From contig JAGTTD010000001.1 of assembly GCA_018398585.1 (NCBI GenBank), positions 11,720,501 to 11,784,500 on the forward strand: 64,000 bases of DNA, read 5' to 3'. Below, piece after piece: positions 5,731 through 55,132 of the stretch. The stretch is from Simmondsia chinensis. Lineage: Eukaryota; Streptophyta; Magnoliopsida; Caryophyllales; Simmondsiaceae. The number at the start of each line of letters is the position of its first letter. The first letter of the stretch is position 1. The notes under the pieces were generated by a model, which had not been told where the DNA came from, searched no databases, and saw nothing but the letters and a program-made list of their open reading frames with translations. A program made the position numbers and the translations under genes.

Positions 5731-6324
5731 TCATCTGCATATTGTCACATCAACTGTTCGAAGCCGGTAATAGTGACTCTGCTCTAGGACAAAAGAAGAG
5801 TACACCTGCTCAAGGCATTTGCCACCTTGTAACGCACCTGACTTGTGCTTGATCACAAAGTGAAAGACCTGAATGTAACTCGCCCAATTGGCATGTCGAT
5901 CGGATAATTTGTCTTGGCTGTTGAGATACTTGAAGGCCACGTTGTCAGAATACAAGACAAACTTTCGGTTGGCAAGATAAGACTTCTAGTGCTGCAAAGC
6001 CCTTACCACTGCATAAAACTCAACATGGTAAGTAGAATAATTCAACTTCCTTCCATTGAGTTTCTCACTGAAATAAGTAACTGGTCTTCCTTCTTGGCTA
6101 AGTAGCGCGCCAATGCCAATCTTAGAAGCATCCATGTAAAGCTCAAAGTTCTTCTCGAAATTCGGCAAAGCTAATACCAGTGCCGTGGTCAATCTTCTCT
6201 TTATCTCTGCAAAGGCGTCAACTACATTTGGAGCCCAAGCAAAGGAACTCCCCTTCATACAATCTGTGATAGGCGCCATGATCGAACCGAAGTTCCTTGA
6301 AAAACGCCGATAGAATGATGCCAA
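5731..6324 (-). pseudogene. Gypsy I RNase H and RT-RNase H linker
   Basis: The frame starting near 6324 reads ASFYRRF, the usual RT-connection motif, then [18 protein letters not shown] and [19 protein letters not shown], which form the RNase H core of Gypsy elements. It continues in another frame with YSDNVAFKYL near 5950. RNase H removes the RNA template during reverse transcription. A frameshift near 5985 and later stops inactivate it. Confidence 0.85.
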
Positions 6325-7278
6325 CCCATGAAAATTTTGGACTTCGTCAACTGTTTTTGGCTATGGCCAATCACGAATGGCCCCAATCTTTCCTTCATCT
6401 GCAGCTAAGCCATCCTTGGATTCAATAAATTCAAGGAAGGTTACTCAGCCTTTCACGATTTCATACTTTTTTAAAGCGGCAAACAAGTGTTGATCTCTCA
6501 AGGTATCCAGCACTTCCTGGAGATGCGTCATATGCTCAATTTGATCTCGTCTATAAATCAAAATACTGTTGAAGTAGACGACAACGAACTATCCAATGAA
6601 TGGATGTAGAGCCTAATTCATAAACCTCATGAGGGTACTTGCCGCATTGGACAAACCGAATGGCATGACAAGCCACTTGTAGTACCCTTCATGTGCCTTG
6701 AAGGCTATCTTCCACTCATCTCCTAGTGAGATGTGGATCTAATGATATTTTCTCTTGAGATCTAACTTGCTAAACACCTTTGAGTCCTATAGCTGATCAA
6801 GTAAGTCATCCAATATTGGGATGGGAAAATGGTAGCGTACCGTGATCTTGATGACTTTGCTATCCACGAACATTCGCCAACCACCGTCCTTCTTTGGCGT
6901 CCATAGAGTAGGAACTGCACAAGGACTCAAGCTCTCTCAGATAAATCCCCTAGCAAATAACTCCTCCACTCGGTGTCTCAACTCCTCATGCTCAGCAAGA
7001 GTCATACAATAGTGAGGCCTATTCGGCAAGGCAACACCGGGCATTAGGTTAATGCATTGCTGAATATCCCTCAACAGTCGCAAAGTATCAGGTAACTCGT
7101 CTGGAAAGACATCCATGAACTCTTTCAACAAGTCTCCAACCTCACTCGGTATCTCCCCTGGATCACCTTTACTCTCATTCCCGATCAAGACGAAGATAAT
7201 CTTGCTATCGCCAACCTCCTTAGCGAACATAACTTGGCCTTGTAAATTTGAGTTTGCGGCTACTAAAGCTCGCAACAC
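6325..7278 (-). pseudogene. Gypsy I reverse transcriptase
   Basis: The N-terminal RT part is open at 6937-7278 (FPDELP, RPHYCMTLAEHEEL, VEELFARGFI), which is typical of the protease-RT boundary in Gypsy elements. The rest, down to 6325, is broken by stops. The catalytic box near 6560-6580 reads YFNSILIY on the minus strand where active elements read F/Y-x-D-D, so both aspartates are lost. RT copies element RNA into DNA. Confidence 0.85.
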
Positions 7279-7479
7279 TTCATCATTTTAGGGTAATAAG
7301 ATAGTCCTTGTCCCCTTAGAGATGAAACTATTAGTGATCTTCCTTCTATCATGGATGGCACTCCTATCGTATTGCCATGGATGCCCTAACAATATATGGC
7401 AAGCATCCATGGTGACTACGTCCCACCACATCCTATCTCGATGCTTCAACCCAATCGAGAATTAACCAAGCATCACTTT

Positions 7480-7640
7480 GAAACAGTTACCTGGTTTTTT
7501 TTCTTGAGCCATGAGAACTTGTATGGACTTAGGTGTGTTTCTCTCTTCAAGCCCAACTTTATGGCAGCCTCATCGGAAATCACATTCTCACAACTTCCTG
7601 AATCAATCCCCATGCGGCAAACTCTTCAGCCAAAGGTGTA
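7480..7640 (-). pseudogene. Gypsy I aspartic protease remnant
   Basis: Near 7565-7612 the minus strand encodes IDSGSCENVIS, the active-site D-S-G motif of a retroviral-type aspartic protease, followed by AAIKLGLK. The frame is short and interrupted on both sides. The position between gag and RT fits Gypsy order. Confidence 0.7.
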
Positions 7641-18713: not shown

Positions 18714-20695
18714 CTAAACCTCTATCAACTTCTGTTTCCCCTTGTCTTTAAGGCACTTTGTTCTTTTCTGAGAGCGTCTTACACCTCTAGATTTCTTCAA
18801 AATTGCCTCAACATCAGAAGAAACATAGCTATTCTAGTTAATTCCAAGCAGGGACCCTGTTTTCCTTATCTTCTCTGCTTCCCTTCTATCCTCATCCGCC
18901 CCATCCCAACTAGATGCAGAGTTGCTGAATTCACTATCTTCTCTGCATTCTTTCTCATGACATGAAGGTAATTTCTTAACCTTTCTCTTCTTTCCTTCGG
19001 AGGCATTTTCAATACTCAAATCATCAGTTTCACAATCACCAACCCCTTGTACTTCGACATCAAACAGATTAACAAATCCCGGTGGAAATTCATCGTCTGT
19101 ACTCGCATCCCCTTTTTCCTGAGAATTCGAATGTGCTTCATCCTCACAACTAACATCATCTGCCAATGGCTTGTGCCCACAATTCTTGAATAGCCACGGA
19201 CTATTGGGAGTAGGAGAGAGTGCGATCCCAAGTCCAACTAATTCATCCAAGATAGTAAACTCTTTTCGTTGGTCACTGCAACCTTCTTGATTCAGACTAC
19301 TAGCAAGCCCATTCTTTCTCACCATCCCTTTCTTTCTGCTTTCCTCTTGAGGCTCGACTTCCTTCCCAACAGATCTCATTAACCTTTCTTCAATATTTTT
19401 AATTGGAATTGTCTCTTGGACTTCTTTGTGGGCTTGTAACTTCTCAGATCTAGATTTTTCAAAACTGCCGCCCGCCACATCCTCCTGCCTAACCGGTTGG
19501 GCTTCTCCATGCGTCGTTGCCCCCGATACCCCTAAGACTTGCCCTTGATCATCAACCGTCCTTGGCACCACCTGTAAGGAAGAGAACGACCACATCTTCT
19601 CAGTGACCTCTGGAAGACAAGATAGGTACTTTTCAGTTGTAATTTGACTCCCTTCAAGTGCATGCACCAAGAAACTTGCTTGTCCAACGGTAAACCACAC
19701 CAACTCATCAATACTCCTCTTGTCTTCAGTCTCAACAAGTACTCTACCAACTTCAAGAGACTTCTCAGCTTTACAAATACAATCAGTTGCATGGACTCTA
19801 CCCTAACATTTACCAATTTCAAAGAAATTTTCATTAGACCAAGCATGGAGTGGTACAGCATACCAAGCTAGCCAAGCTTTTCTTTTTCTACTTTGTACAA
19901 ACTCATTCCATCTTTTGATCTTTGTAAAGATCTGGCTCAACCTTTCAGAATTATTTCTCAGTATTTCCTCTCTTTCCTCCTCACTTCTAAATGCAATAAC
20001 AAACTTTGTACCACCCATAAACTGTACTTCACACCCAATAAAGCCTTCTTTTACTAACCTTGCATTGACATACTCTGTGCTAGCGTTATCAGTCAGCTTA
20101 CCCACAATACTCCTTCGAAGTTTCTCTAGCCTCTTTTCAACAGCTAATCCATGTACAGTTCTCAGATCACCCCAGCAGGGATTCATGTGGTTGGCGGCAC
20201 TTCTGACCTCTGCTTCTCTGTTAGTCTGAGCCTGGTTCATTCTTGTAGTCTCCACATCTCTGTCACGGCTTCAGTTTCACATGTATTCTTATCCTTCACA
20301 TTTGTGTCCTTTAATACTTGGGCATAGGGTCTACCATCCTTCTTGGCATTAGTCATCATCTTCGGAGCCCCATTTTCAAAGCAGCCCCCTTGAACCGCTG
20401 GAAATGGCTTCCTTGTTTTATCGTAGCTTGCCAATTTGACAAAAATTCTAGCATCCCTTAGCCAGCAACCATTTGCGTCATTGATAGCTTTTTGAGCCTC
20501 ACTCCATTTTTCATATCTCACAAACCCAAATCTTAGCTTTCTCATTACTCTTCTTTTCAAAGGGACATAAGTTTCAATCACTCTTCCATGGTTGCTGAAG
20601 ACCTTTCTAAGCCAGAAATTCGTGATGTCTAGAGGTAGATTATCAACGAATAAAGTCACACCCATGTCAACACCGCTCATCCTCCCCCAATGCAC
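18714..20695 (-). pseudogene. L1 ORF1 with RRM domain
   Basis: The start ATG is at 20695. An RRM covers about residues 10-85 (TLFVDNLPLDITNFWLRKVF as the RNP2 side; LRFGFVRYEKWSEAQKAI as the RNP1 side), then a region typical of plant L1 ORF1 (LVKEGFIGCEVQFMGGTKF) and an acidic, Ser-rich C-terminal half (SPWLFKNC, DDEFPPGF). One frameshift near 20250 and stops at 19803 and 18834 split it into three readable parts, about 660 codons in total. ORF1 proteins of plant L1s bind the element RNA. The few lesions suggest it is not very old. Confidence 0.82.
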
Positions 20696-21351
20696 TCCCT
20701 TCTCATCACTTCAAACGGCGCCTTTCAACAAGCACCAATCGGGAGGAGGTAGGTACACCAGGGAAGAAGACTGCACGACGACCACGAGGCTAGGAGATCG
20801 GCGGTGAAAAGTAGAGCACGCGCTCTCACGCGCAGCTAGTGTGGGCCAGGGGCATGGAGTTGGATAGTCGCTTGAGCCCTAGAGTAAAACTTATGTTAAG
20901 TTATTGATGGCATTTTTAATGATTAGGCTATAGGTTGGATTAAATTGAGTCAATAGGTGAATTTGTAGTGGATTACTTGCATCTAACATGATTGTACTAT
21001 TAAAAATTGTATCATTAATTTAACTTGGATTTGATAATTGGACTACATTGACACAATTTAAATAGTTGAGGGACTAAATTGACACATTTAAAAGTACAAG
21101 GACTAAATTGACATAATGAGTAAAGTACAGGGACATCTAAAAGTAGAAAAACTAAATTGACATAATGAGCAAAGTACAGGGACATCTAAAAGTAGAAAAA
21201 CTAAATTGACATAATGAGGGACATTTAATTCAAATAGCCCTTTAAATTATAAATTACTAAAATAGAGGTTTATGGATATTACCAACGACCAATGGCGGTT
21301 TATTAACAGGAGGTTTATAAATTGAAAAATAGATGATAATGATAGATTCTA

Positions 21352-34746: not shown

Positions 34747-35090
34747 AGAAATCCACATATTACCCTTGAGGGTTCACCAGAATTTTAACTTCATTTGGGT
34801 ACCCAACCTTAAATAAGGTAAAATAAGAAATTTTTCTTAAGGAATCTGAAATCAAGTAAACAATGAAGACAGGCTTCCACGCTCATGGGACTGAACAAAA
34901 ATAAGCAAAGGATAATTTAAGGAATTGTTTGGTATCATTTTTTGTTCATAGTTTTTAACTGTCTAGAAACAAAAAGTAGGGTTTCGAAACAATTTCTTGT
35001 TTTCAATTTTTTACTTAAACTAGTAAAAATGCAAATAAAAAATCAAAAACAAAAAAAATAACTTTATTAGAAATGTGGTTTTCAGTTTCT
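34747..35090. other. Extra sequence in duplication copy 1, MITE-like
   Basis: Copy 2 lacks this stretch. It contains AATTGTTTGGTATCATTTTTTGTT (34922 onward), a start resembling other TTTGGTAT repeats at 47039, and AAAAA-rich text. No inverted ends or TSD were resolved. Confidence 0.35.
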
Positions 35091-35684
35091 AAGAACCCAA
35101 AACTTACAAACAAAAAGCGATACAAAAGAGGATCCTAAGTTACAGAATTTGGATTTTCCTAGAACCCAAAACTGGATGAAGTTGGGGATAGCACTCTTAA
35201 CCCATCAAAAATATACATGTTTCAACTGCTATCAATTTCCACTATTGGCAGAGCTACAAGAATTTAATTGGTGAACATCTTAACAAGGCATTCCTTCTCA
35301 ATGCATGCTGAAAAATTCATATAGCCTAAGTGCCGAAAACCAACCAAAATGCAAGTACGGAAACATATTTAGATGACATTACGTGTCCCATAATCTAAGA
35401 AAAGAAGGAATAAGATGTGATACTAATCCATGAATCTAAGTCCCATGACCAACACACTTCTTATCGTTAAAGAATAAGCAGAGTTCATCCATATAAAATC
35501 CTAAAGCAACCTCGGTAAAAGCAGCCATATTTTCAGAGTAAAAGCACATAATCCTTATCTTCCGTAGAACATAAAACCGTTCCGGGGAATTGTTATAGAC
35601 TCAATGACATGATATCAAACCATCTTCAACCTAAACATCTCATGCTTTAGTGACCATATGGGCTTGACCATTTCCCACCCCCTA

Positions 35685-35792
35685 CAACAACAACAACAAA
35701 AAACTCAATGCCTGTAAGGGCTCCCGCAAAAGCAGGGTCTGAGGGAATAGACGTACGCAACTTTCCCCCTTTAGGGGGTACCCTGAAGAGAT
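35685..35792 (-). mobile_element. RTE-tail-only insertion with perfect 11-bp TSD
   Basis: On the minus strand this is the last about 100 bp of the RTE LINE or SINE tail ending in TTG repeats (plus strand ACAACAACAAC at its left end). The TSD CCCACCCCCTA is perfect at 35674-35684 and 35793-35803. The paralogous site (about 43050-43066) has a single TCTACCCTAAAGG, the empty site. It is a severely 5'-truncated retroposition. Confidence 0.9.
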
Positions 35793-36151
35793 CCCACCCC
35801 CTAAAGATCATATTGATGAGGTAACTGGAAAATATGCAGTTTCTTGGTTACTAGGAAGTAACACAAGAAATAGGAATTAACGCCAAGTGCTTATTTGCCC
35901 TCTTGTTTGGTTACCGGTAAATTGTCACAACATGGAAATTAAAAATTTCTAGGAAGTTTTTATTCCTTTGTTACACAGAAACTTACTTACCTAAGGGGGT
36001 TAGACAAGTTCGTTTTATTTCCCATACTGACAACCAAACATAAATTTTTGTTCCTTTGTCACATAGGAATTAATTTAACTACGGGGCTAACTAAGTGCTA
36101 ACTATTAGGCAGTTCTATTTCTTATCATGACAACCAGACACAAAACACCTT

Positions 36152-36289
36152 TTTTTTTTTAAAGATAATTGATGGTTCATTAATAGAAGAATATGATACA
36201 AAAACCACCACACCTTACAAAAACACCACCCACCCAAAACACCCCGAAGTGCCAACTATACAACACTAAGACTAAAAATAAAAGAAAAG
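36152..36289 (-). mobile_element. 5'-truncated L1 3' end with perfect 15-bp TSD
   Basis: A T run at the left (about 36152-36160) is the poly(A) tail of a minus-strand insertion of 138 bp. The TSD GACACAAAACACCTT is at 36137-36151 and 36290-36304. The duplicated locus near 43300-43320 lacks the insertion. The sequence next to the tail (TAATTGATGGTTCATTAATAG) resembles the 3' end of the L1 at 17815, so both belong to the same L1 class. Confidence 0.85.
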
Positions 36290-36636
36290 GACACAAAACA
36301 CCTTCCTAAAACATCGACACAAATTGCTAAGAGATACAACTTTTGACGATAGTTTAATTTCTATCTTACACAAACAAGGTCTATGATTGCAAAAAGCAAA
36401 GCTAAACAAAGGCAGCCATTAATCATCTCATAATTTAACATACTAGAACGAGAAACAATTAACTCAAAGCAGCACCCACAAATCAAAACGACATTATCCA
36501 AATTCATGTCATAGATCCCTACAAATCAAAACAAAACGTGCTCATAAACCACAACAAAAACACATACTCAGATAAAATCTCAAGAACCCCAAAAAAACCC
36601 ACTACTAAAACTCAAACCCCATATTTCAAAAACCCT

Positions 36637-36738
36637 TAATCTTCCCCACCCTTCTGGTAAACATATGTAAGCCCACACTTACCACAATAATCACCTTCGC
36701 TGCCACGGCCAAACTACTCACAGAATAGGCTACACCTC
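36637..36738 (-). pseudogene. Truncated ubiquitin-S27a pseudogene
   Basis: The minus strand encodes [18 protein letters not shown] and a stop, the same C-terminus as the intact gene at 43608 ([18 protein letters not shown]). Upstream the reading frame decays (a stop near 36715) and then meets the LTR of the inserted retrotransposon at 36739. The ubiquitin part is absent. It marks where the duplicated copy of the gene was lost. Confidence 0.85.
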
Positions 36739-37352
36739 TGTCACGATCCTTGACCGTGACCTTGTACCCAACAACCCATTTTTACTTTCATTATTTTTGT
36801 ATCGAATATGTAGGATAAAACTGTAAAATTAGTTAAGTATAAATTAGTTTAAATTTTGAAATTAGGAAGAGGAGGGAACCGGTTAGGAGGGAAGAAGAAG
36901 GAGGGAAAGATAATTTAAATTTTGAATTTGCAATTGTGTTGTTGTAGGAAGGCCTAGGTGGCCGGTTGTCCCCCTCCCCCCCCCCCCCCCCCCCCGGTCT
37001 ATTTAAGCTCATGTGATTGTGTATTTTGAATCATCAATGAAAAATATCAAAATTGCCTCTTCTCTTCCTCTCTCCCTAACCGTCTCTCTCTCCCTTCTAA
37101 TTCTAACTTCTCCTCCCCTCTAACTCTTCTAATTCTCTTCTCTACTTCTCCTCTAACTTCTCTTCTTAACTCTAAATCCCAATCTTTCTCTAACCTCTCT
37201 TTCTCTCTCTCGTTCTCTAAGTCTATTTCTCTTTCTCCCTTAACCTCTATTTCACCATCACGAACCTAGGTTCGTGAATATCCCCGTAACAAACATCAAG
37301 GTTCGTTACAAAGTGGTATCAGAGCTCGTCACCAACCCTTGGGTTTGTTACA
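36739..37352 (+). repeat. 5' LTR of the Gag-protease-RRM element
   Basis: This 614-bp LTR has a TATA-like TCTATTTAAGC at about 36997-37007 just after a C20 run (36976-36995). A long CT-rich stretch follows (37060-37250), probably the start of the transcript. Near 37262-37275 is the inverted ACGAACCTAGGTTCGT. The last 70 bp contain an internal GTTACAAAGTGGTATCAGAG, a copy of the LTR end plus primer-binding site. Confidence 0.93.
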
Positions 37353-37355
37353 AAG

Positions 37356-37367
37356 TGGTATCAGAGC
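37356..37367 (+). promoter_or_regulatory. Primer-binding site of the Gag-protease-RRM element
   Basis: TGGTATCAGAGC lies three bases after the LTR and is complementary to initiator Met-tRNA. A second identical 12-mer lies inside the LTR at 37314-37325 (and at 40617-40628 in the 3' LTR). Confidence 0.95.
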
Positions 37368-37429
37368 CATCTTCCGATCCGGAAAAGGGCTTAACCTATC
37401 TTTTTTCTCTCATCCGGTTAAAACCGAAT

Positions 37430-37430
<1 letters not shown>

Positions 37431-37464
<34 letters not shown>
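37431..37464 (+). promoter_or_regulatory. 34-nt poly(A) run in the gag leader
   Basis: An uninterrupted run of 34 A lies between the primer-binding site and the gag ATG, ending 17 bases before the start codon. Poly(A) leaders can bind poly(A)-binding protein and help translation; that role here is inference. It could also be a slipped microsatellite. Confidence 0.6.
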
Positions 37465-37465
<1 letters not shown>

Positions 37466-37481
37466 GGCTATAACAAGAAGC

Positions 37482-40067
37482 ATGTCCTCAACCGGTCACA
37501 CCGATACCAACGAGTGGGTCGACGACGCCGTTGATGATCGGATGGTCCGCTTGGAGGAAAGGATGGACCAACTGGAGGAGCAACAAAACCGAAACAACAT
37601 CGAGATAAGAGCAGACATGGCAGACGTGAAGGCTGACCTGAGGGCCCTAACCGATGCCGTGGGTCGGTTGGTGAAGGCCCAGGAAAAGAGGACCGAGGTG
37701 GAGACCGTGGCCCCAACCGCGGGAGCCCGTGACAATGCCGCGCCAGGAGGGTCAGGCACGTACCCGAGAACCGGCAATGGGATCCTACCGCCTCCAATAC
37801 ACTCTTCAGAACCCAGAAATAACCCGGCCCCACCGCGAGTCACGGATGAAGGGGACTTTAGCCGAAGCCACGGAAGCAACCGCACCTGGACCTCCCATGC
37901 GCCCAAGCTCGAGATCCCAAAGTTTGAAGGTACGAACCCGAGAGCCTGGATCCGTAAGTGCCTTAAATACTTTCGTTGGTACCAAGTGCCCGAAACCGAG
38001 TGGGTTGAATATGCTTCAAGCCACCTTCATGAACACGGGGACATTTGGTTCCACGGGCTAGAACTTAGACACCCTCACATGACGTGGACCTTTTTCATGG
38101 ACGAATTGTGCAAACGTTTTGGGGACCGATCACTCCAAGACATAGTGGAGGAGTTTAGCAAGATGTCACAAAACGGGCCGGTTGAAGATTATATTTTGAA
38201 ATTTGAAGAATTAAGGAGCTGGATGCTTATCCATCACCCGACATTGAGCGAGGCATACTTTGTCTCGAGCTTTATTAGCGGACTTAAGCCCGCCATTCGA
38301 GCATCCGTCAAGGCAAGCCGGCCAACCGAGCTTAGCATGGCCTTTGAACAGGCCAAACTCCAAGAGGTTGCGGTAGCCGAAATCAGGAATGCTGCCCGAC
38401 CTATCAACCAACCCAGTTTTAGCGCCCGGCCTGTCCCCAGCAGCCGACCAGTGTCCTCGGCAGCACCCCAGGGCTGGGCCCAGTCCCACGGGTCCGTGTC
38501 CAAAACCAGCGGCAGCAGCAACACAGGTTCCAGCGCCCCGAGACGGGAGCCGGGCCAATGTTACAAGTGCCATGAAAAATACTTTCCGGGGCACGTTTGT
38601 AAGAAGGCCTTACAAAGTATGGAAGGAGAAGAGGTCGAAGACGAAGCCCAAGAAGAGGAAGTTGCAGGTCAAGAGCAAACCGAAGGAGAAGACAATGGAG
38701 CTATGGAGGTTTCTCTAAATGCACTTTCGGGCCGAGTCACGCACAACACCTTGAGATTGAAGGGCCTGATTAAGAAGCGGGAGGTAAAAATCTTGATCGA
38801 TAGCGGGTCCACTTATAGCTTCCTAGATGCTAATGTGGTCCGAGAGCTTCAGCTCGAAACCGTACCCACCGTCGTCATGACCGTGACAGTGGCAAACGGG
38901 GAGAGCCTCATTAGTTATCAGAAATGCCCGGGCGTAAGGTGGAAAGTCCAAGGCACAACGTTCGTTGATGACTTGAGGGTATTGGAACTCCGGGGCAGTG
39001 ACATGGTCCTTGGGGTTGATTGGCTCCAACAATATGGGCCCGTAACATTTGACTTCACCAACCTCAAGTTCGCTTGCTTCAAAGAGGGTAAGGCAATCCG
39101 CTTACAAGGCACATCCGAGAAAGCCGCCTTACAATCAATTTCGGGTAAAGGCCTCCCCAAGCTCTTCAAGAAGGCCGGACATCTGTTGGCTCACCTCTTT
39201 ATGGCTACCGCCGAGGAGGCCTCCGAGTCCGTCATTCATCCGAAGATAGAACGCACCCTCAACCGAATTGTCATGGATCCACAAGGATCTACGCTCATTG
39301 TCCGAGTGTGGGATCTCCTCTATCCCGTTACCGAAGACGTCCTCTACCAAGTGTTCTCCCCCTATGGCCGCCGTGAAGAGATAAAGATTAACTCGACATC
39401 GACCTATAAGGTTGATACTCTAGTGACCTTTACCTCAAAGGAAGAAGCCGACATCGCACGCAAGAGCTTAAACAAAAGGACGGATAAATCACCCGGGGAT
39501 GAGAACCATGACTTGGCTCGTTTACCTCCGGAAGGGTTGGACAAGACAATGCATCCGCACCAAGTGGAGCAGCCTGAATCAAGCCCAGAGGCACCCGAGC
39601 TCACTCATGGTGCGCAGCCGTGCGCACCACTTGCATTGGGATGCGCATCGCCTCCACATACCAGCGCCCACCATGCGCCAAGCCTGGACTCCATGGTACA
39701 GCACATGTCATGGACACAGCCAACTGAAGCGCAGCAACAGCGTGGTGAGTTTGCGCAGCCGGGACCCACGCAGCAGCAGCAGCAGCAGCGGCAGGGTGCG
39801 CGCAGGAGGTCAAACCGAGGCATGAACAAAGAAAATGGGGAAGTGCCGATTTGGGGACATTTTCCTAGAACCAGAATTGGCACTAAGAGATCAACCCACC
39901 GAGTTCAACCTTGGCCAGAGGATCTTAAGGACAAGACCTATCCATATGACCCAGGGATAAGAATGAAGATACTAAGCGAACGAGAACCGAAGGACAAAGG
40001 TTGCGCGTACCACTCATCCTTGAGGACAAGGATGCTTTCAAGGGGAAGGGTTTGTCACGATCCTTGA
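37482..40067 (+). CDS. Gag-protease-RRM fusion polyprotein (861 aa, intact)
   Basis: The frame opens at the first ATG after the poly(A) leader and ends 15 bases inside the 3' LTR. Domains: coiled-coil N-terminus (about 15-70, VRLEERMDQLEEQ); Gypsy gag capsid (about 150-300, AWIRKCLKYF, FMDELCKRFGD, FISGLKPAIR); zinc knuckle C360, C363, H371, C373 (CYKCHEKYFPGHVC); acidic linker; aspartic protease with D440 (ILIDSGSTYSF) and DMVLGVDWL. At residue about 590 (HPKI), where an RT would start, it switches to an RRM (about 600-665, LLYPVTEDVLYQVFSPYG) like those of polypyrimidine-tract-binding proteins, then Pro/Gln/His-rich text with a CAG run near 762. The last 70 residues keep the usual Gypsy pol 3'-end nucleotides. 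GC content is clearly above that of the surroundings. Intactness suggests recent function; the RRM role is unknown. Confidence 0.92.
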   Translation: MSSTGHTDTNEWVDDAVDDRMVRLEERMDQLEEQQNRNNIEIRADMADVKADLRALTDAVGRLVKAQEKRTEVETVAPTAGARDNAAPGGSGTYPRTGNGILPPPIHSSEPRNNPAPPRVTDEGDFSRSHGSNRTWTSHAPKLEIPKFEGTNPRAWIRKCLKYFRWYQVPETEWVEYASSHLHEHGDIWFHGLELRHPHMTWTFFMDELCKRFGDRSLQDIVEEFSKMSQNGPVEDYILKFEELRSWMLIHHPTLSEAYFVSSFISGLKPAIRASVKASRPTELSMAFEQAKLQEVAVAEIRNAARPINQPSFSARPVPSSRPVSSAAPQGWAQSHGSVSKTSGSSNTGSSAPRREPGQCYKCHEKYFPGHVCKKALQSMEGEEVEDEAQEEEVAGQEQTEGEDNGAMEVSLNALSGRVTHNTLRLKGLIKKREVKILIDSGSTYSFLDANVVRELQLETVPTVVMTVTVANGESLISYQKCPGVRWKVQGTTFVDDLRVLELRGSDMVLGVDWLQQYGPVTFDFTNLKFACFKEGKAIRLQGTSEKAALQSISGKGLPKLFKKAGHLLAHLFMATAEEASESVIHPKIERTLNRIVMDPQGSTLIVRVWDLLYPVTEDVLYQVFSPYGRREEIKINSTSTYKVDTLVTFTSKEEADIARKSLNKRTDKSPGDENHDLARLPPEGLDKTMHPHQVEQPESSPEAPELTHGAQPCAPLALGCASPPHTSAHHAPSLDSMVQHMSWTQPTEAQQQRGEFAQPGPTQQQQQQRQGARRRSNRGMNKENGEVPIWGHFPRTRIGTKRSTHRVQPWPEDLKDKTYPYDPGIRMKILSEREPKDKGCAYHSSLRTRMLSRGRVCHDP
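40041..40052 (+). promoter_or_regulatory. Polypurine tract of the Gag-protease-RRM element
   Basis: AGGGGAAGGGTT directly precedes the 3' LTR, the usual plus-strand primer position. It lies within the coding frame, whose stop is inside the LTR. Confidence 0.85.
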
Positions 40068-40655
40068 CCGTGACCTTGTACCCAACAACCCATTTTTACT
40101 TTTATTATTTTTGTATCGAATATGTAGGATAAAACTGTAAAATTAGTTAAGTATAAATTAGTTTAAATTTTAAAATTAGGAAGAGGAGGGAACCGGTTAG
40201 GAGGGAAGAAGAAGGAGGGAAAGATAATTTAAATTTTGAATTTGAAATTGTGTTGTTGTAGGAAGGCCTAGGTGGCCGGTTGTCCCCCTCCCCCCCCTTG
40301 GTCTATTTAAGCTCATGTGATTGTGTATTTTGAATCATCAATGAAAAATATCAAAATTGCCTCTTCTCTTCCTCTCTCCCTAACCGTCTCTCTCTCCCTT
40401 CTAATTCTAACTTCTCCTCCCCTCTAACTCTTCTAATTCTCTTCTCTACTTTCCTCTAACTTCTCTTCTTAACTCTAAATCCCAATCTTTCTCTAACCTC
40501 TCTTTCTCTCTCTCGTTCTCTAGGTCTATTTCTCTTTCTCCCTTAACCTCTATTTCACCATCACGAACCTAGGTTCGTGAATATCCCCGTAACAAACATC
40601 AAGGTTCGTTACAAAGTGGTATCAGAGCTCGTCACCAACCCTTGGGTTTGTTACA
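40053..40655 (+). repeat. 3' LTR of the Gag-protease-RRM element
   Basis: It is 603 bp against 614 bp in the 5' copy, mostly because the C run is only seven bases here (40285-40291). Otherwise nearly identical. Confidence 0.93.
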
Positions 40656-40660
40656 ACCTC

Positions 40661-41559: not shown

Positions 41560-44265
<2,706 letters not shown>

Positions 44266-52193: not shown

Positions 52194-53603
52194 TCATAAA
52201 TTAGCATTGAACTTCCTGTAATAGCCTGCTAAGCCCAAGAAACCTCGCAATTGCTTCAAGGTGACTAGAATTGGCCATTCTTTCATGGCTTGTATCTTTG
52301 AGGGATCTGTAGAGACTCCCTTGGATGATATACCATGTCCCAAATAATCCAATTGTTGCTGCATAAAAGCGCACTTAGACAACTTTGCAAAGAACTTGTG
52401 ATTGCGTATGACAAGGAAGACTTCCCTCAAGTGCTGTAGATGATCTTCATAAGAGGCACTGTAGATGAGAATATTATTGAAGAAGACTAGAAAAAATCTC
52501 CTCAGAAATGGCTTGAAGATATCATTCATTGCTGCCTGAAATGTAGCTGGTGCATTGGTTAAGCCAAAAGGCATAACCACAAACTCATAGTTGCCATGAT
52601 GAGTTTGAAATGTAGTCTTGAAGATGTCTTGCTCAAGCACTCTAATCTGGTTATATCCCTGTCTCAAATCCAACTTAGAGAAGAAACACGCTCCATACAA
52701 TTCATCGAGTAAATCATCAATAACAAGAATTGAAAACTTATCTTTGAGTGCCAAAGAATTGAGTTGCCTATAGTCGATGCACATCCTTATAGAACCATCT
52801 TTCTTCCTCACTAAAATGACTGGTGAAGCAAAAGGACTGTGGCTTGGTTTAATGAAGCAAGTCTTAAGCAATTCCTTTACTTGTCTCTCAATTTTTGATT
52901 TCTGAGCATTAGGATACTTGTAGGGCCTCAATTTGAATGGTGCTGCACCAGATTTCAGAGGAATGGCGTGATCAAGGCACCTCTGTGGAGGAAGAGACTT
53001 AGGCTGCTCAAAAATGTCCTCAAACTCCTCTATCAAAGCTTTAACTTCAGGCTGTTGCACAGGACACAATTCTGTTGGAGCAATTGTAAACAGCTGACCA
53101 ATCCACTTATAAGCACTCTTCTTGAAACCTCCTTGCAAGCTCTTGCCTTTAATCAGTTGCAATTGAGCTTGATCTTCAATGCCTTGTAAAGTAACTTTTG
53201 TTCCTTGAATCTGAAAAGAAACAATTAGCTTAGCAAAGTCAAAAACCACAGGGCTGAATGATCTCATCCAATCAACTCCAAGCACCATATCACATCCTCC
53301 CACGGGAAGGACTTTGAAATGATAGGTGAATTGATGCTTCTGCGTAGACCATTGGAAGTCTTGGCATTTGTTCTGTGTGAGGATAGAATTCCCATCTGCC
53401 ACAATTACAGCTAAGGGATGAGTTTTAATCACTTTATGCCCAACTTTCTTCACAACCTTTGGATCAACAAAGCTACGAGTACTTCCACTATCTATTAAGA
53501 TAGTGATGTGCCTTCTTCCTGCTTTTCCTTTGATCCTTATCGTCTTGTGAGCTCCATTCCCAGTCAGTGCCTTCATAGAAATCTCAATCTCATCCTCAGC
53601 CAA
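52194..53603 (-). pseudogene. Gypsy III protease and reverse transcriptase (469-codon frame, RT active site lost)
   Basis: The longest frame of this element. The protease part has ITILIDSGSTRSFVD and DMVLGVDWMRSFSP. The RT part has KKDGSIRMCIDYRQLNSL, FSKLDLRQGYNQIRV, TTFQTHHGNYEFVVMPFGLT and the thumb QLRGFLGLAGYYRKF. The catalytic box reads VFFNNILIYS where active Gypsy RTs have F-D-D; both aspartates are Asn through AAT AAT codons. The enzyme cannot polymerise. No frameshift occurs inside the frame. Confidence 0.93.
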
Positions 53604-54583
53604 TTCAGCCTCAGACTCATGATCAGAACGTCCTCATCAGGCTCAGATTCATCACTGTCTGACTGTATTGCAGCATTAACCCCTCGAGCAGACATCAAAA
53701 ACTTGGAGCTACACTTATGTCCTGGCTGATAAGGTTGATTGCACTTGTAACAAAGCCTTTGAGGCCTCTTCTCTGCAGATCTACTGGCCTGGGACACATT
53801 TACATCTCTATGATGAGATTTTGAACTATTTCCTTTGAACTTGCCTTTGTCACTTAAAGAAATGAAAGTGGCCTCAATCAATTGGGCTTTTGCATAAGCC
53901 TTTGTTAAGGTCTTAGGACCAATAGCTTTCACCATGTTTTTAATTCGTGGCTTCAATCCACTAATAAAACTTGAGGCATAATAAGACTCGGTTGCTTAAG
54001 GATAAGCAGCTATCATACTAGCTCTTAAGTTCTCAAATCTTGTCATATATTCTCTCACAGTTGTGGTTTGAAGGACTTTATTAAAAGTATCTACTACATC
54101 ACTAGTGTCCTCATCACCATATCTTTCACACAACTCCTCCACAAATTCAGCCCAAGAAAGGTTTGGATTGCTTTTTAACAAATTGTAAAACCATACCTCT
54201 TGATCACCACGAAGATATACTGCAGCCAATTTCACCTTTTCAGATTCTTTGATGTTGTAGAAATGGAAGTATCTATCACATCTCCTCAACCATGACTGAG
54301 GTTGCTTGCCGTCAAAAGGATCAATTTGCACTCTTAGTTGTCTGAATGTATTGCTTCTATTCGCAGAAGAAGCATCATTACTACCAGATCTTTGCTGATG
54401 GTAGTGATCAGGTGGCCCATCCAGATGCAAAATGTTATCGGGTGAAGTTTTAGTATGAACAACAGAATCCAGATGCCTCACATTTTGATTTGAGTTCATG
54501 CTAGATGCTCGAGATTGCACTTGCTCAATAGGATGGTCTCGTGATATGACAGTTGCTTCAACTACTTGTGACCTTATCTCCAC
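53573..54583 (-). pseudogene. Gypsy III gag with zinc knuckle
   Basis: The frame 53996-54583 encodes FRQLRVQIDPFDGKQPQSWL, KLAAVYLRGDQEVWFYNLLK and MTRFENLRASMIAAYP, a Gypsy capsid. The next frame 53573-53956 has LCYKCNQPYQPGHKC (CX2C..GHXC knuckle). A stop near 53994 separates the parts. Upstream to about 55075 lies a Gln-rich N-terminal stretch with stops and no clean start. Confidence 0.9.
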
Positions 54584-55132
54584 AGATTGTTGAAGATCTT
54601 AAGGTCTAGCATTCGTATGAATCATTGAAGGAGCACCGCTTGGTCTATTCAAGATTGTAGCACTTGTGTTTGGCACTTGTGATTGCATCACTTCAGCTGA
54701 AGGCGGTAGTTGACTAGCAGGTCAAAAAACTCCCAAAACAGATGATTTACCTTGCTTATTTACTTGATTTTGCAAATCAGAGAGCTTGCTCTCAAATCCT
54801 TGGAATTTCTACTCAATCTAAACTTCATACTTCTTCACATTCTTTACTTGATCTTGCTTGAAGCAATCAATTCCTTGTTGTTGCAGAGCCTGAAATCGAC
54901 TGAACATATCGTCCAATTGTGACTTCAATTGATCATTTGTCACAAACTAAACCTCCTTCGATGCATTCGCACTTGCTACAGCAGCATAGGAAACATTTGG
55001 ATCAACAAAAGCAACTGAATGACCAGCTCCTGCTGTTCCTGCTCCCGATCGGGTAGTTACACCTCCTCTCATGTTGGAACTGTTCTTTTTAGGCTTCGCC
55101 AGCTCAAATCAATCCACTGATAGCATGAACCA

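Follow-up and report, generated by a model that had tools for sequence, protein, structure and literature searches.

How does an RNA-recognition motif (RRM) come to stand behind Gag and protease in a long terminal repeat (LTR) retrotransposon, and does it function there? The question is raised by a 64,000-nucleotide stretch of the Simmondsia chinensis genome (contig JAGTTD010000001.1, positions 11,720,501 to 11,784,500; hereafter the window), in which an LTR element at 36739-40655 carries such a fusion in a single open reading frame (ORF). An earlier note on this DNA proposed that a host RNA-binding domain had been captured, and that the fused RRM could select RNAs for packaging. The data presented here point to a different history: the element, hereafter form A, is probably a non-autonomous recombinant produced by template switching between a pol-bearing Gypsy element (class C) and a small RRM-only LTR element (form B), in which the truncated RRM is a passenger and the Gag capsid is kept by selection.

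The element in the window and its copies

The architecture described in the earlier note is borne out by the sequence. The 5' LTR (36739-37352, 614 bp) and 3' LTR (40053-40655, 603 bp) have TG...CA ends and are bracketed on both sides by the target-site duplication (TSD) ACCTC (36734-36738 and 40656-40660). A primer-binding site (PBS), AAGTGGTATCAGAGCC, presumably of the initiator methionine tRNA type, directly follows the 5' LTR (37353-37368), and a polypurine tract (PPT), AAGGGGAAGGG, lies just before the 3' LTR (40040-40050), completing the features expected of an LTR retrotransposon. The two LTRs differ at six sites (Kimura two-parameter distance 0.010), two of them bordering a poly-C run; the figure of about four given previously fits the sites outside that run, the length of which differs by 10 nt between the LTRs, with one further gap of 1 nt. 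A PBS-like motif, TGGTATCAGAGC, recurs with a period of approximately 42 bp over the LTR end and leader in the window (37305-37368), in locus L015 (4500-4584), and in locus L056.

The uninterrupted ORF (37482-40067, 861 codons), on the forward strand like all other parts of the element, encodes Gag, protease, RRM, and a tail. Pfam matches exceed their own cut-offs for Retrotrans_gag (42.5 bits; residues 177-270, at 38010-38291), Ty3_capsid (41.9 bits), RVP_2 (50.8 bits; residues 429-519, at 38766-39038, including a DSG motif), RRM_8 (44.4 bits), and RRM_1 (29.4 bits), and a zinc knuckle, CYKCHEKYFPGHVC, is encoded at 38559-38600. No matches to reverse transcriptase (RT), RNase H, or integrase were listed in the Pfam scan of this ORF, in agreement with their reported loss. 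The segment at 39273-39479 scores as an RRM, as anticipated, though an incomplete one: the RRM_8 profile is matched as far as position 73 of its 89. Its top sequence matches in the Protein Data Bank (PDB) are RRM2 of hnRNP LL and of the polypyrimidine-tract-binding protein PTB1, and these are weak (E 0.0012). Single-sequence structure prediction of the truncated domain returned the strand and helix order of an RRM minus beta-4; its mean predicted local distance difference test (pLDDT) score was 58, and it was given no weight. The RRM is followed by a low-complexity tail (39480-40015) common to forms A and B.

The coding content of form A, a Gag and an aspartic protease without RT, RNase H, or integrase, corresponds to the definition of terminal-repeat retrotransposons with a GAG domain (TR-GAG), which encode Gag, alone or with an aspartic protease, but none of the other three (Chaparro et al., cited in PMC6022998). 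Form A shares with TR-GAG elements the LTRs, PBS, and PPT; it differs in its additional in-frame RRM of PTB type after the protease, and in that its likely donors can be named.

The genome searched comprised 831 Mb in 35 contigs. With a 411-bp query covering the RRM, 40 of 332 candidates were scored, and the copy counts of both forms derive from these 40. Thirty are full-length matches at 93-100% identity, the window copy included (form A, of which the genome holds at least this number), while at 10 places the match is interrupted by an extra segment of about 0.1 kb (form B). The element is thus multi-copy, and the objection that it might be a solitary insertion does not apply. Architecture was read from 20 stretches of 9.9 kb. 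Form A is ordered LTR-leader-gag-protease-RRM-tail-LTR, with part of the protease absent in both units of one locus (L021); form B, at approximately 2.1-2.3 kb, is ordered LTR-leader-RRM-tail-LTR and is without gag, protease, or pol. Compared with the LTR in the window, the parts of form B LTRs that align show 67-89% identity; for the RRM and tail pieces the figure is 88-98% (95-98% for the RRM alone).

Both forms inserted recently, with TSDs. Duplications of 5 bp flank 10 of 11 form A loci (the exception being L027) and 8 of 9 form B loci (the exception being L018), and divergence between paired LTRs, or between array units for L013 and L021, is 0.002-0.025 in the TSD-flanked loci of the two forms. 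Loci L025 and L026 are probably a single insertion that was duplicated, since the TSD and an adjoining element are common to both. Arrays of LTR-internal-LTR-internal units with common LTRs, an arrangement that form B sometimes takes (L013), occur at L013, L021, L056, and contig C8:11639580-11646668, and one TSD brackets each of the L013 and L021 arrays. At L027, another small internal type (5771-7634) lies between LTRs of the same group; it is 67% similar to the N-terminal part of Gag over a stretch, and comparison with the window element gave no RRM match within it.

Two probable donor groups and the origin of the fusion

A search for a full Gypsy partner, suggested in the earlier note, yielded class C. 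A 570-bp query spanning the protease and the junction with the RRM gave 645 candidates, of which 40 were scored: 28 matches reach the end of the junction and belong to form A, and the remaining 12 stop 5-10 bp before the query end, short of the RRM, at 96-97% identity. These 12 are assigned to class C, the protease of which is 97-98% identical to that of form A. Four were read downstream, and all four run on as IERILDRYQDVFEEP... into RT. Pieces of one class C copy, L058, match RVT_1 (128 bits), integrase H2C2 (73 bits), and SH3_Tf2-1 (80 bits), with rve (32.4 bits, cut-off 32.6) and Chromo (22.5 bits, cut-off 25.1) falling just below threshold. The L058 frame is open through the end of pol and that of L060 to the end of the stretch read; the pol frames of L057 and L059 contain a stop. 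The protease-RT-integrase order of class C, together with the Ty3-type capsid of form A, places the system in Ty3/Gypsy.

Across the junction, form A agrees with class C up to and including GATAGAACGCA, which lies at the beginning of RT; from CACCCTCAACCG onward it agrees with form B, and a partly shared CA-CTC-ACCG lies in between; in the window, the class C-like GATAGAACGCA and the ensuing form B leader (CACCCTCAACCGAATTGTC) occupy 39249-39272. In addition, approximately 35 nt adjoining the PPT (40016-40050) match the 3' end of pol in L057 and L058 at 86% identity, consistent with the pol remnant recognized in the earlier note. Because the left part of form A matches class C and its right part matches form B, an origin from these two groups is favored. 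RNAs of class C and form B may have been packaged together, and reverse transcriptase would then have switched templates between them, a step suggested by the junction and by the way in which LTR elements are known to be copied, and the simplest account of form A. Class C would provide RT and integrase in trans to both smaller forms, and form A might contribute its own Gag, in the manner of a TR-GAG element.

Form B retains what form A has lost. The first ATG of its ORF is at the RRM, giving a stand-alone protein, M-DPQGSTLIVRVWDLLYPVTEDVLYQVFSPYG...KRCIYDNCCNMEVRF, and this ATG is still present internally in the form A fusion, where it marks the start of the truncated domain at 39273. The form B domain is complete: in L015 it matches RRM_8 at 72.3 bits over profile positions 10-86 of 89, and its alignment with RRM2 of PTB1 (E 1.2e-9) covers the beta-4 segment, IYDNCCNMEVxF. 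Judged by an RRM_8 match that includes beta-4, form B therefore carries a complete PTB-type RRM and form A does not. Like RRM2 of PTB and hnRNP L proteins (PDB 2adb, 3zzy, 2e5i), the form B domain has the pattern IYxxCCxxxxxF around beta-4; however, a PTB protein has several RRMs, whereas the element ORFs scanned (the window ORF, L015, L049, L050, L054, L055, and L056) carry one each and are encoded by LTR elements.

Relative to form B, form A is missing exactly 102 bp of the RRM, between two copies of AACAAAAGG, and beta-4 is thereby removed; in the window the scar is the same 9-mer at 39471-39479. The segment may have been lost by slippage between the AACAAAAGG repeats. Alternatively, it could have been removed as an exonic intron by splicing of genomic RNA, and one alignment within the ambiguity of the 9-bp repeat does give GT...AG ends; yet a 9-bp direct repeat flanking both ends is the simpler account, and a pyrimidine tract before the AG is absent by eye, which makes splicing an improbable route.

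In a tree of the RRM and tail from 30 form A and 11 form B copies, rooted on two other RRM-only copies, all form A copies constitute one clade (support 0.785) and the form B copies are paraphyletic around it. Given this nesting, and since form A lacks 102 bp that form B possesses, form A most likely descends from form B and not the reverse, as judged from these sequence comparisons. A point on the other side is that the node uniting all copies of both forms is weakly supported (0.327); the nesting therefore leans on the 102-bp segment and on the form A clade.

These observations also bear on the immediate source of the domain. Had a gag-protease element acquired the RRM straight from the mRNA of a host PTB gene, with form B derived later from form A through loss of gag, a domain of PTB RRM2 type would be expected, as is found; but the 102 bp would then be difficult to reconcile with their presence in form B and absence from form A, as would the nesting of form A within form B. 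Furthermore, other RRM-only copies are as low as 47% identical in amino acids to the form B RRM, and the domain must therefore have been resident in such elements for much longer. We regard direct capture as most improbable. Since RRM-only LTR elements have a complete domain and form A is nested among them, the immediate source of the RRM would be a retroelement; of the original proposal, the TR-GAG-like character and the PTB-type affinity of the domain stand, and a host gene as its immediate donor does not.

Constraint on the capsid and on the RRM

Polymorphic changes were counted among 30 form A copies (28 for the protease). In the capsid, 37 are synonymous and 19 nonsynonymous, a ratio of nonsynonymous to synonymous polymorphism (pN/pS) of 0.13 (P 9e-14). 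The NC-linker (24 synonymous, 42 nonsynonymous; pN/pS 0.48), protease (22 and 35; 0.49), and tail (19 and 36; 0.59) are intermediate in value, and the ratio is close to one in the junction (6 and 19; 1.01) and in the RRM (11 and 38; 1.02, P 0.57). The difference between capsid and RRM is significant within form A (Fisher 1.2e-5). The form A capsid is thus under purifying selection, and the form A RRM varies as if unconstrained; the neutral decay named in the earlier note as a potential refutation is seen in the RRM of form A, but neither in its capsid nor in RRM-only elements. The class C capsid gives a value similar to that of form A (six copies, 8 synonymous and 5 nonsynonymous changes; pN/pS 0.15). 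Frameshifts are found in one NC-linker, one protease, and three tail pieces of form A, and a stop in one tail piece; the junction pieces contain neither.

The RRM of form B, in 11 copies, has 10 synonymous and 13 nonsynonymous changes (pN/pS 0.40, P 0.028). The same ratio is obtained when RRM-only copies other than form B are compared as four independent pairs, with 49 synonymous and 71 nonsynonymous changes (P 2e-6), and these pairs differ from the form A RRM (Fisher 0.033). The same domain therefore looks constrained in RRM-only elements and seemingly unconstrained in form A.

It was suggested earlier that the RRM could work as part of the Gag fusion, choosing which RNAs are packaged, whether those of the element or of the host. 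Such a fusion could account for an RRM frame that is intact in all 30 form A copies, and PDB alignments indicate that the beta-1 and beta-3 strand regions are retained. However, beta-4 is missing, the pN/pS values of 1.02 in the RRM and 1.01 in the junction stand against 0.13 in the capsid, and confidence in the predicted structure is low (mean pLDDT 58). Because the 102 bp with beta-4 are lost and substitutions in the RRM look neutral while the capsid is constrained, a working Gag-RRM fusion is not supported, and we consider it very unlikely. The truncated RRM of form A is probably a relic and not a working part.

Several observations weigh against this account of a selected capsid and a passenger RRM. 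No stop or frameshift was found in the RRM pieces of the 30 form A copies, and the domain may therefore have a weak role. Of the 30 form A capsid pieces, three carry a frameshift. One of the 11 form B RRMs contains a stop, and the contrast between the RRMs of forms A and B is, taken alone, not significant (Fisher 0.095). The deep RRM-only pairs were selected from candidates ordered according to their profile scores, which favors conserved copies. Finally, capsids of form A and class C are mixed in the capsid tree, while NC-linker, protease, and junction keep the two apart; exchange with class C, besides selection within form A, may therefore preserve the form A capsid. These points notwithstanding, recombination between class C and form B, with a passenger RRM and a selected capsid, remains the reading that we favor.

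RRM-only elements, their leader, and a possible role in packaging

Form B belongs to a wider set of RRM-only elements. A search of the genome with the RRM_8 profile (PF11835) identified 2,202 candidate loci; each of the 150 that were scored, with 73.9-87.6 bits, exceeds the cut-off, and in several cases neighbors are spaced 1.7 kb apart in arrays. Host genes or fragments may be present among the 2,202. Eight loci, with 10 RRM-only copies, were sampled from this list, which also includes L015, and their RRMs are 47-95% identical among themselves and to the form B RRM. A separate DNA-based search for RRM-only elements returned 308 candidates, and 24 of the 40 scored are also in the profile list. 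Read from stop to stop, the ORFs of the eight sampled loci are 91-745 aa long (91-124 aa in L051-L053), and in five of them submitted to Pfam, RRM families alone exceed cut-offs. Of the 10 copies, 8 have a PBS motif upstream of the RRM, at a distance of 142-345 bp; the exact motif was not found for L050 and L055.

The LTRs themselves suggest what the protein might bind. In the window, a polypyrimidine tract at 37056-37205 is 85% C+T and holds 24 TCTT/TTCT/CTCTCT motifs, and all 19 form A and form B LTRs measured, that of the window included, contain a 150-nt tract that is 82-88% pyrimidine and abounds in the same motifs. PTB proteins bind motifs of the TCTT/TTCT/CTCTCT type, and since the LTR tract is rich in them, the form B protein is predicted to bind its own LTR leader. 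Binding of this tract in the shared leader by the RRM protein, which is constrained in form B, would be expected to stabilize form B RNA or to promote its packaging in class C particles.

Several observations tell against this prediction. The tract exceeds background by a modest margin (a maximum of 0.84 in 59,850 windows, with 10 of the 19 LTRs reaching 0.85), and pyrimidine-rich leaders are widespread in plants. Class C, in which no RRM was seen, also has the tract, at 86-87% in both 5'-LTR stretches measured; the first 349 nt of the 3' LTR in one class C copy have a pyrimidine fraction of 0.67 and thus no tract, perhaps because the stretch ends before it. Among the eight other RRM-only loci, no tract was seen upstream of the RRM in three (L051, L052, and L055, the first two being short stretches).

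Form B might instead be an inert miniature resembling a large retrotransposon derivative (LARD), its RRM ORF a captured passenger as in form A. Decaying gene fragments are carried by many plant LTR elements (PMC3726574), and several RRM-only ORFs are as short as the 91-124 aa of L051-L053. Yet a pN/pS of 0.40 recurs in form B and in the independent RRM-only pairs, the domain has been kept whole, PTB-like residues included, over deep divergence, and the PBS motif precedes the RRM by 142-345 bp in all sampled copies but L050 and L055, which makes an inert miniature unlikely. Form B resembles LARDs and terminal-repeat retrotransposons in miniature (TRIM) in having LTRs and a PBS without gag or pol at its size of about 2.1-2.3 kb; their definition (PMC6022998), however, excludes a coding domain, whereas the RRM ORF of form B is constrained.

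The RRM-only copies, then, form a numerous set of small LTR elements that encode their own PTB-like protein, and they probably act as parasites of Gypsy particles. More tentatively, and at somewhat less than even chances, they may constitute an old and very large miniature-LTR family in which a PTB-type protein in the place of Gag binds the polypyrimidine leader of the LTR and draws the RNA into autonomous Gypsy particles, the element in the window being a fossil of such co-packaging.

The nearest described cases differ in the source or treatment of the domain. Maize Bs1 is likewise an LTR element in which coding sequence of foreign origin has become part of a chimeric gene; Bs1 transduced pieces of three host genes (PMC13317346), whereas the form A domain probably came from another LTR group, one with its own RRM gene. 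In rice or sorghum, PF11835/DUF3355 and PF00076 are among the domains most frequently captured by LTR elements, so that the same Pfam domain occurs inside them; it was counted there as captured, with function unknown, and the parts of that study covered describe neither a fusion to Gag nor a group of RRM-only elements, and neither a donor nor a test of selection on the domain (PMC3726574). The literature searched, in which few subscription papers were covered, yielded no description of LTR elements that form a group and have a PTB-type RRM gene of their own; that study is the nearest. Protein database searches with the RRM gave no match (107 and 10 candidates). A search with the protease part returned 96 proteins; most of those named are from Hibiscus and Coffea, and the Pfam domains precomputed for the 96 include neither RRM_8 nor RRM_1.

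RRMs encoded by retroelements are also found in the ORF1 proteins of long interspersed nuclear elements (LINEs), but these are non-LTR elements. A different RRM in the window (20237-20710, reverse strand; RRM_1, 47.8 bits) is unrelated to the PTB-type domain, and the ORF that holds it resembles, we presume, a LINE ORF1 protein. Elsewhere in the window, two related blocks (35033-36691 and 42283-43663) are approximately 74-79% identical, and the form A element starts about 45 bp past the end of the left one; beside the right block, an ORF at 43608-44162 (reverse strand) encodes what we take to be a protein of ubiquitin-S27a type. Another Gypsy element at 52194-54598 (reverse strand), the gag, protease, and RT frames of which are broken, is related to the form A element at the protein level, with no DNA match between them.

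The co-occurrence in one genome of miniatures that keep an RNA-binding protein under selection, a pol-bearing candidate partner, and a natural recombinant makes it directly testable how the RNA of non-autonomous LTR elements enters the particles of another element, names now being attached to the leader RNA, to the protein, and to the Gag of the partner. The history of form A likewise carries a caution, in that a domain fused to Gag need not function there.

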